Both the position numbers and the translations under genes were made by a program. The notes below the pieces were generated by a model that was not told where the DNA came from, did no database searches, and worked only from the letters and a program-made list of their open reading frames with translations. From Haloprofundus halophilus (GTDB taxonomy: Archaea; Halobacteriota; Halobacteria; Halobacteriales; Haloferacaceae), in assembly GCF_003439925.1 (NCBI RefSeq), contig NZ_QQRR01000001.1, positions 1,426,001 through 1,490,000 on the forward strand: a stretch of DNA of 64,000 bases, in the 5' to 3' direction. Positions 46,451 through 47,955 of this stretch are shown one piece after another (position 1 is the first letter of the stretch; every line of letters begins with the position of its first letter).

Positions 46451-46690
46451 TCAGACGTCCTCTCGGAGGCGAATCTCGCCTTCGCTCACCGTCTCGACGT
46501 ACTCTCCCCCGACGGCCAAGTCGTCGGCGTCGGCGTCCTCGCGGCCGAAGACCGCCATAATCGCGTCGGTGACACCGGGGTCGGGGTCGACGTAGGCGAC
46601 GTTTCCGTCGACGGACGTCACGAGACCGAGTTTCTCGCCCGCGGCGTCGACCAGCACTTTGCCCTCGTCTTCGGAAGTCAGCGTTGCCAT
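46451..46690 (-). CDS. PRC-barrel-like small protein
   Basis: A 79-residue acidic protein. EDEGKVLVDAAGEKLGLVTSVDGNVAYVDPDPGVTD has the look of a PRC-barrel start (G-K-x-V-x-x-x-x-G-E-x-x-G-x-V), a small beta domain found in RNA-processing and photosynthetic proteins. The C-terminal half (YVETVSEGEIRLREDV) is also beta-rich. Role unknown; monocistronic and divergent from the tRNA gene. Confidence 0.72.
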   Translation of the reverse strand: MATLTSEDEGKVLVDAAGEKLGLVTSVDGNVAYVDPDPGVTDAIMAVFGREDADADDLAVGGEYVETVSEGEIRLREDV

Positions 46691-46746
46691 CGCCGGTAGT
46701 TCGGCCCGTGGTACCGTAGTGCTGTCGGGCGGTGCGAAAGGAAGGG

Positions 46747-46754
46747 TTTAAACG
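46747..46754 (+). promoter_or_regulatory. TATA box of the tRNA-Ser gene
   Basis: GTTTAAAC, 26-33 nt before the first base of the tRNA, the usual archaeal spacing. Confidence 0.6.
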
Positions 46755-46779
46755 AGACACCGGCCAAAATTCGATGCGA

Positions 46780-46860
46780 GCCAGGATGGCCGAGTGGTAA
46801 GGCGCACGCCTGGAAAGCGTGTTCCCTCTGGGATCCAGGGTTCAAATCCCTGTCCTGGCG
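46780..46860 (+). tRNA. tRNA-Ser (anticodon GGA)
   Basis: An 81-nt gene that folds fully: acceptor GCCAGGA/TCCTGGC with discriminator G, anticodon stem CACGC/GCGTG around loop CTGGAAA (anticodon GGA), a long variable arm with stem TCCC-TCT-GGGA, and T arm CAGGG-TTCAAAT-CCCTG. The extra arm and G73 are serine identity elements. No intron and no encoded CCA. Its last 22 bases recur three times within the next 450 bp. Confidence 0.96.
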
Positions 46861-46940
46861 TTCTCGTAGCACAACACTCCTGAGCGGCGCGTCTCGTCGC
46901 GCCGCGGGGCGGTGTTGTACGTCGGAACCTGACGACAGGT

Positions 46941-47312
46941 GATTTGAATCAGGGAAGTCGCAACCTGCGAGCAGAGCGAGCAGGTCCGTCTTCACGTGGT
47001 TCAAATCCCTGTCCTGGCGCTTCTACCGCGAACACCACGGCGAACAGCTTGTCTGTTCGCCACCTCGTGAGCGGTGAACGGGAGCCGCAGAGATTTGAAG
47101 TAGACCGGACGCGCGCAGCGACGCGAGCACGTCCGGGCGTGGTTCAAATCCCCGTCCTGGCGTTCTCCGACGAACAACACCGCGAACACCGCGAAGCGTG
47201 TGCGAGCATCTCAGTGAGTCGGAAACGACTACTGCCAGGATTTGAGCCAGCGAGTCGCAGCGCGAACGGAGTGAGCGACCGTCTCGCGTCGTTCAAATCC
47301 CTGTCCGTAGCG
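46941..47312 (+). repeat. Three modules ending in copies of the tRNA-Ser 3' end
   Basis: The 600 bp between the tRNA and the next gene holds no protein gene but three related modules (46941-47019, 47092-47162, 47239-47312). Each begins GATTTGA, has a GC-rich imperfect stem-loop (for example CGGACG...CGTCCG in the second), then a conserved CGTGGTTCAAATCCC. The closing 22 bases equal tRNA 46839-46860 exactly in the first, with one change in the second and several in the third. GATTTGAA is the reverse complement of TTCAAATC, so each module is bounded by an inverted repeat derived from the T loop. Confidence 0.85.
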
Positions 47313-47461
47313 CGTCTCCCCCGACAACACCTCCGAGTAGTACACCTCGTCCTCGGCGACTCGCGACGTCCGTCTCCGGCGCGGAGAGTGGTCGCACGTT
47401 CGACACGACAGCGAGAATCAGAGAAAGATTGATACGGGTGGCAGACAATCACAAACACGAA

Positions 47462-47647
47462 ATGCCTGACACGAAAAGCGGCCGCGAGAGGAAGGGCAGA
47501 AACAAGCGTGCACAGCTGGAGCACCACCTCGCTCGTCGGGAGGTACGGACGCTTGACGTGAACGACGAACCGGAGATATACGACGACGTGGAGGAACTCG
47601 ACGAAGCCGTTCTCAACCTCTACGCCCTGAACGGTCGAGAGCAGTAA
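47462..47647 (+). CDS. 61-aa charged small protein, unknown
   Basis: A 61-residue protein with a very basic first half (MPDTKSGRERKGRNKRAQLE) and an acidic second half (EPEIYDDVEELDEAVLNLY). This two-sided charge is typical of a nucleic-acid-associated small halophile protein, but no family is recognised. The ATG at 47462 is preferred over one at 47429, which lies within a TATA-like ATTGATAC region. Confidence 0.6.
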   Translation: MPDTKSGRERKGRNKRAQLEHHLARREVRTLDVNDEPEIYDDVEELDEAVLNLYALNGREQ

Positions 47648-47664
47648 CCGAACTCCCCGTTTCG

Positions 47665-47671
47665 CTTTTTT
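47665..47671 (+). terminator. T-run terminator after the 61-aa gene
   Basis: A run of seven T beginning 18 nt after the stop; oligo-T stretches are the archaeal intrinsic termination signal. Confidence 0.45.
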
Positions 47672-47955
47672 TGGGTCGACGGCCGAGCCACGCGTCTCGT
47701 ACGCACAGCGAAGAGACGTACGCTGTCACGCGGAGTCAGTTGCAGATGGCCGTCTGCGGTCGATTTTGTATATAAAAGGCCGATTTTTCCGCCCCGAGCG
47801 TCGATTCGAGATTCCTGTTAACACAGTTCATTAGTATCCGGTTCACGGGTCCGGTCCGTGTGTTTTCGAGCGGTGAGTGACAGTGTGTGGCGTGGCGTTC
47901 GATAGCTCGTCAGCGGAACTTTTTTATAGAAGCACAAACAATCCCGGTGTAGACC
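47672..47955 (+). promoter_or_regulatory. Thermosome upstream region
   Basis: No protein gene seen. TTTTTATAG (47922-47930) lies 26-34 nt before the thermosome ATG and is its probable TATA box. A second, stronger box GTATATAAAAGG (47768-47779) lies 180 nt upstream and could start a long-leader mRNA or a small RNA. GTTCGATAGCTCG just before the proximal box may be part of a heat-shock element. Confidence 0.45.

Follow-up and report, generated by a model that had tools for sequence, protein, structure and literature searches.

CRISPR arrays grow beside a fixed leader-like anchor, a trait shared with the units described in this article, and casposons target the 3′ ends of tRNA genes. The units differ from both in that their repeat is a tRNA 3′ half and that the "spacer" carries the inverse of this repeat. 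The site of the CTX phage works as a folded single strand. So does the attC site of integrons (PMC9668308), a way of working that is also proposed for the units here. Integron arrays further resemble the units in being composed of short tandem units at one anchor, each ending in an imperfect palindrome of fixed polarity, in gaining and losing whole units, and in a content that follows from the anchor outward. However, the anchor of an integron is attI beside intI, whereas the anchor here is the T-loop of a tRNA gene. Moreover, the units here are gene-free, too short (80–186 bp) for usual cassettes, and possess a left arm that matches a particular tRNA.

Archaeal elements that target tRNA genes by means of a tyrosine recombinase, as treated in the passages of PMC8371274 that deal with them, likewise duplicate the 3′ part of the tRNA and leave the tRNA intact. 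Yet those elements are kilobases long and encode their integrase, and the attachment (att) repeats of two such elements read in this work contain neither the hairpin nor the inverted T-loop. The closest haloarchaeal relatives in appearance are the small mobile repeats (SMRs), the PATEs, and the partial tRNA duplications of Haloquadratum walsbyi, which are small, non-coding, and palindromic or tRNA-duplicating. In the sections of PMC3119063 devoted to them, PATEs and SMRs are treated as transposable elements or repeats with no link to tRNA genes, and the partial tRNA duplications form part of prophages or islands of kilobase length. Earlier descriptions of the units were sought in open-access full texts, a scope outside which most subscription papers lie, and none was found there. 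The units resemble miniature mobile cassettes of a hitherto undescribed kind.

The window analyzed here is a stretch of 64,000 nucleotides from Haloprofundus halophilus (contig NZ_QQRR01000001.1, positions 1,426,001 to 1,490,000), and all features lie on its + strand. The tRNA-Ser(GGA) gene at 46780..46860 (ARAGORN; Rfam RF00005, 63.2 bits) is the anchor of an array of three head-to-tail units of 159, 143, and 149 bp located on its 3′ side. Each unit consists of a spacer, a hairpin of the form GATTTGAA...TTCAAATC, and a 22-base copy of the tRNA end. This repeated block, termed repeat family D1, occupies 46839..46860 in the tRNA gene itself and comprises the 3′ half of the tRNA, meaning the T-loop, the 3′ strand of the T-stem, and the 3′ strand of the acceptor. 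The left arm of the hairpin is the reverse complement of the T-loop, and each 22-base copy starts within the right arm. The inverted repeat of the units is that of the tRNA T-arm. Unit 1 begins with a spacer that contains its own GC-rich stem-loop (46861..46940; fold of 46860–46940, z -3.6) and has a similar counterpart behind the same tRNA in a congener, G003. It continues with the hairpin at 46941..47007 and an exact copy of the tRNA 3′ half (22/22) at 46998..47019. Unit 2 contains a spacer at 47020..47091 (fold of 47019–47091, z -2.5; assigned also by comparison of tRNA-Ser(GGA) loci), a hairpin of the GTAGA.. core family at 47092..47150, and a copy with 21/22 identical bases at 47141..47162. 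Unit 3 is composed of a spacer at 47163..47238 (fold of 47162–47238, z -1.2, not significant), to which a similar sequence continues the array of G003 after unit 1, a hairpin of the GTCGCA/CCGTC core family at 47239..47299 with the left arm GATTTGAG, and a decayed copy (16/22) at 47290..47311. All three copies were recovered both as repeat family D1 and by the cognate-end search described below.

Folded as single-stranded DNA, the three hairpins reach -18.6, -19.2, and -16.8 kcal/mol with z values of -4.9, -4.3, and -3.1 against shuffled sequences. Folding of the spacers beyond shuffles is clear for the first, weak for the second, and not seen for the third. Over 46600–47700, Rfam places the tRNA alone above its gathering score and detects no other curated RNA family. 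The initial annotation of this locus had described the copies as spaced by 143–159 bp and each module as opened by GATTTGA, and both statements agree with the measured unit lengths and with stem-loops opening at 46941, 47092, and 47239. It had put the copies at 46998, 47141, and 47291; three copies are present, the last of which starts one base earlier, at 47290. The fall in identity with distance from the tRNA, noted there as well, applies to this array and is not universal, as tRNA-His in the same genome is followed by three exact copies.

The array is not confined to tRNA-Ser(GGA). The pattern GATTTGA-N20-50-TTCAAATC matches the 3.47-Mb genome eight times, as opposed to zero times for the reversed pattern, and all eight sites lie just 3′ of tRNA genes. 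For a more general search, the last 22 bases of each of 47 Rfam tRNA hits (including one degenerate tRNA and one unnamed by ARAGORN) were compared with the 15–500 bp downstream of the same gene. A cognate copy with at least 16/22 identical bases is present behind 21 of the 47 genes, with at least 19/22 behind 18, and an exact one behind 11. The best match was at most 14/22 upstream of the genes (0 of 47) and at most 15/22 in reversed sequence (47 genes). Of 2162 comparisons with the ends of non-cognate tRNAs, 230 give at least 16, since the T-loop is common to tRNAs, and only 8 give at least 19. Chance is thereby left behind, and the repeat observed at tRNA-Ser(GGA) is confirmed as real. A degenerate tRNA with an unreadable anticodon (L114, G000:C2:503000-508500) is among the carriers; it is situated about 0.5 kb behind tRNA-Gly(gcc), has its own cognate 3′-half copy, and is also found in G003 and in a second congener, G001. 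A second, shorter type of unit occurs downstream of three tRNA-Arg genes (cct, L052; ccg, L049; gcg, L075). It repeats the T-stem and acceptor end only, together with an inverted copy of that part, and reads ..GCGTTTGCTCACTCCC plus acceptor in L052 and L049. At Arg-cct of G003, the shorter unit and a normal unit stand in swapped order.

The search behind other haloarchaeal tRNA genes that the initial annotation had suggested is strongly positive, as it extends from these 21 of 47 genes to 168 of 195 genomes of the order. The latter number refers to a longer pattern running from the tRNA T-loop over the inverted T-loop to the next T-loop, whose controls gave no match in the same 195-genome scan; the simpler hairpin pattern is present in 49 of 60 relatives. 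In a sample of the phylum, a hand count of rows gives the longer pattern in 76 of 81 genomes that belong to the order and in 2 of 311 that do not. Of the latter two, G609 shows nothing unit-like by eye, and G540 contains two matches. In addition, 84,980 species were scanned with the commonest core as an exact 30-base pattern. It matched 117 stretches, all haloarchaeal by title except two from one metagenome-assembled genome labeled only Euryarchaeota; an "Actinarchaeum" among them is Halocatena, of the class Halobacteria. In 116 of 125 core matches, a tRNA on the same strand ends 31–383 bp upstream, and these tRNAs belong to 16 isotypes. An antisense tRNA lies upstream of one match, and no match is followed by a tRNA on its own strand. 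Compared with the same-strand upstream tRNA over 12 acceptor-side bases, the copy is identical in 77 of the 116 cases and agrees in at least 10 of 12 positions in 103. Seven of the nine core matches devoid of a tRNA lie within 190 bp of the edge of their stretch. In these scans, the unit is class-wide, occurs on most tRNA isotypes, and is confined to haloarchaea. Among plasmid records, the query gave three haloarchaeal matches, and units are present in both of the two that were inspected. On a 987-kb plasmid of Natrinema thermotolerans (L429), the unit stands behind a partial tRNA-Glu, with no full tRNA in the 3-kb stretch.

A set of 150 units defines the common architecture. The median unit length is 122 bp (range 80–186), of which the hairpin makes up 36–79 bp. 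The left arm is complementary to the upstream T-loop of the unit itself at tRNA positions 53–61, most of which the search pattern fixes, and then continues into the T-stem. At positions 62, 63, and 64, the agreement of the left arm with the cognate tRNA is 0.84, 0.70, and 0.48 as opposed to 0.69, 0.55, and 0.31 for the best shuffles. From position 65 onward, it is mostly not above shuffles; positions 69 and 73 (0.40 and 0.33 versus 0.37 and 0.29) are slightly above and are given no interpretation. The left arm is tRNA-specific through positions 53–64. Correspondingly, tRNAs with TTCGAATC, TTCAACTC, or TTCGATTC have GATTCGAA, GTTGAA, or GATCGA-like arms. A full antisense copy of the tRNA 3′ half within the unit, in which the right part of the spacer would mirror the entire acceptor strand, was considered and rejected (4.79 versus 4.50 for non-cognate acceptors). 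As complementarity to the acceptor strand was not found, the claim is limited to the T-loop plus about three T-stem bases.

A few sequence families make up the cores enclosed by the arms, and they reappear behind different tRNAs and in genera far apart. Among 36 cores that form a joint family, A-T, G-C, C-G, and T-A pairs occur in the stem beside a constant internal loop; core stem positions 3 and 4 each pair in 0.86 of these cores (shuffle maxima 0.67 and 0.69). This covariation suggests that the folded single strand matters, which would hold for DNA and RNA alike. Many spacers contain, right behind the tRNA end, a recurring stem-loop like TTCTGCGACGAACGGACGTGAGGAGCGAA with possible tandem G.A mismatches. 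Units on the same acceptor are more similar than others in their spacers (0.38 versus 0.27) and slightly so in their cores (0.43 versus 0.39). Cores on different tRNAs are not more similar within than between genomes (permutation p 0.46); recent hopping between the tRNA genes of one genome was, thus, not seen.

An RNA would be expected to show stem covariation, too, and the units may be read as a functional RNA or terminator in the tRNA trailer. Herein, a hairpin and a second 3′ half in a read-through transcript would rival the tRNA fold or serve as marks of 3′ ends, while selection would preserve their specificity for the tRNA. The fixed orientation 31–383 bp behind tRNAs, the covarying stems, the complementarity of the left arm to the T-arm, and the stem-loop in some spacers are in line with this. 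However, a unit is present at fewer than half of the tRNA genes in a single genome, the number of units at orthologous genes of congeners is zero, one, or three, with differing spacers and cores, the distal copies decay, and Rfam recognizes the tRNA alone at this locus. We, therefore, regard a role as RNA or terminator as unlikely.

Whole units are gained and lost between relatives. At tRNA-Ser(GGA), 22 loci could be parsed out of 30 relatives; of these loci, 6 lack a copy, 12 contain a single one, 1 contains two, and 3 contain three. Two further loci were inspected besides. The congener G003 has unit 1 followed by the sequence similar to the spacer of unit 3, without unit 2, and G001 has one unit of the unit-3 type. 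Across orthologous tRNA genes of G003, G001, and the genome of the window, paired by their upstream sequence, the copy number varies widely. To relate empty to occupied sites, the trailer of the empty site was aligned to the occupied site both before the first copy and behind the copies, and matches were counted against the 95% shuffle value in 36 pairs. The native trailer is found solely behind the copy in eight pairs, which cover five tRNA genes (Leu-caa, Gly-tcc, Pro-tgg, Tyr, and Gly-ccc), in both places in 12, solely before the copy in four (Lys-ttt, Thr-cgt twice, and His barely), and in neither in 12, which are undecidable; with one genome compared per species, insertion and loss are not always separable without outgroups. 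Judged by these alignments, the eight trailer-behind pairs are empty and occupied states of an insertion that directly repeats the 3′ half of the tRNA and moves the native trailer downstream. The "both" and "before" pairs can be read as decayed units at the "empty" site or as another mode of growth. A decayed unit of this sort is visible by eye at the "empty" Arg-cct site of G001. Insertion in the manner of CRISPR or casposons, in which the tRNA end is duplicated together with the spacer, is seen at some loci (L006 and L029) but was rejected as a general rule, the native trailer standing solely behind the copy in 8 of 36 pairs at five tRNA genes.

Allelic differences provide a finer view of the junction. 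G57 is present in both the tRNA and the left arm at tRNA-Thr(tgt), and A57 in the displaced copy; of the empty sites, that of G003 represents the A57 allele and that of G001 contains G. The base before GTTC tracks the element and not the tRNA, with AGTTC copies behind GGTTC tRNAs, which places the junction at position 53/54. Where the alleles differ, the left arm follows the upstream T-loop in 33 and its stem partner in 11 of 44 cases (p 0.0013; Fisher 0.0034). In 90 units without selection for unequal T-loops, the arm, the downstream copy, or the upstream T-loop alone differs in 6, 5, and 1 cases. Because this pattern is explicable by plain decay, and decay of distal copies could yield the 33 versus 11 result as well, the allele test is not taken as proof of a circular unit.

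Units might also arise in place, without any transposition, if replication of the T-arm palindrome led to template switches and tandem duplications. The length of the repeats suffices for slippage, deletions mediated by repeats are reported for Haloquadratum (PMC3119063), and perfect tandem arrays exist, such as the three 108-bp units of Halorientalis (L378). However, the spacers and cores of new units are absent from the empty sister site at Leu-caa, Gly-ccc, and Pro-tgg, and independent rearrangements would not yield the same core families on different tRNAs and in distant genera. Rearrangement in place as the source of the units is, hence, improbable. The units of L378 (Halorientalis regularis) are near-identical, as are three tandem units of 146 bp in Halobacteriales archaeon YIM A00013 (L358); both arrays are likely products of recent amplification.

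Ordinary integrative elements occupy the same tRNA genes. Two hairpin loci without a nearby tRNA (L025 and L033) were followed outward, and each leads to an element of about 6 kb with a tyrosine recombinase (PF00589, 36 and 58 bits). These elements sit between the tRNA gene (Lys, L112; Gly, L113) and the hairpin array, which indicates that classical elements insert beside the tRNA and displace the arrays. Their att repeats are without the inverted T-loop hairpin, and that of the Gly element is 45 bp long and extends back to the anticodon stem. The remaining two core matches without a tRNA are arranged likewise, with a tyrosine-recombinase gene or its remnant between a partial tRNA end and the array. 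In L377, the Pfam score of 25.9 is just below the cut-off of 27.1, and the gene in L328 reads as broken.

The units could, accordingly, be seen as remnants of viruses or plasmids of this ordinary kind, shrunk by internal deletion, and the presence of genuine tyrosine-recombinase elements at the same tRNA genes (L112 and L113, also L377 and L328) speaks for such an origin. Yet the GATTTGAA hairpin is missing from the att repeats, which also extend deeper into the tRNA (45 bp in L113), and in the two elements read at both ends no attR is preceded by a unit hairpin. Moreover, the unit length is clustered (median 122, 80–186, n=150), unlike the outcome of random deletions, and the left arms match the host tRNA. 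An origin by shrinkage is, thus, very improbable. Of the two options in the initial annotation, leftover att sites of ordinary integration do not fit, as the att repeats are hairpin-free and the elements are tRNA-proximal of the array; a miniature element that mimics the tRNA 3′ half does.

We, therefore, favor, at about even odds, a reading of the modules as a non-coding, non-autonomous integrative unit that attaches to tRNA genes at their T-loop and 3′ half. The reading draws on the cognate 3′ halves, the tRNA-matched left arm, the differences by whole units between congeners, the displaced trailers, the junction at position 53/54, the covarying core stem, the fixed orientation behind tRNAs, and the near-identical 108-bp units of Halorientalis regularis. 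As is characteristic of tRNA-integrating elements, the 3′ part of the target tRNA is duplicated at both ends, both behind 21 of 47 genes and in the empty/occupied pairs. The order within a unit is T-loop and rest of the tRNA 3′ half, stem-loop spacer, inverted T-loop with the first T-stem bases, structured core, and next T-loop. A free and probably circular unit would recombine with the tRNA on the 5′ side of the T-loop. The incoming unit would, herein, provide the tRNA with a new 3′ half and shift the old half and the old trailer downstream. Recombination at this position would give the product that is observed, namely an intact tRNA, a unit, the old 3′ half, and the old trailer. Repeated events or tandem duplication would build the array. 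Growth adjacent to the tRNA, and with it the sequential growth proposed in the initial annotation, is consistent with the displaced native trailers, which fall short of proof. The four trailer-before pairs would result from growth downstream of the trailer or from a decayed unit at the "empty" site. More tentatively, the T-loop and its inverted copy may fold the single strand so that it takes on a double-stranded form resembling the tRNA att site, in the fashion of attC; such folding would force the arm to match each tRNA. The units are far too short (80–186 bp) for a recombinase gene of their own, and a tyrosine recombinase might act on them in trans. Against the reading, a free form was not detected in two scans of viral contigs with one core type or in phage records, and the core similarities gave no sign of recent hopping between tRNA genes.

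With hairpins that fold at z -3.1 to -4.9 and a core stem that covaries, the units may resemble attC in their fold. The IntI integrase (TIGR02249, curated cut-off) was found in 0 of 60 relatives, which show just weak matches of general recombinases below the cut-off, and the genome of the window gave no match at all. Given its absence above the cut-off in all 60 genomes, the parallel to integrons is at most a likeness in working and not one of membership. The main text of the archaeal integron paper (PMC9668308) contains neither "haloarchae" nor "Halobacteri" by word search. By analogy, one can envisage a broader system spanning haloarchaeal tRNA genes, although we consider it doubtful. T-loops would be its landing sites, and its non-coding cassettes would carry a replacement 3′ half and an inverted T-arm that folds into a copy of the att site. 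A tyrosine recombinase of the host or a virus would insert and remove them, so that tRNA 3′ halves would be continually replaced.

The reading as an integrative unit would, if true, account for a repeat without description in the literature searched, and it is open to a direct test in culturable haloarchaea. The tRNA genes of a whole archaeal class would then be fringed by a mobile family too short to encode anything. Its sequence, rewritten for each tRNA, would represent a novel means by which DNA exploits tRNA genes and a source of tRNA 3′-half replacement. In addition, the units would be a candidate for site-specific recombination via folded DNA beyond the classical integrons.
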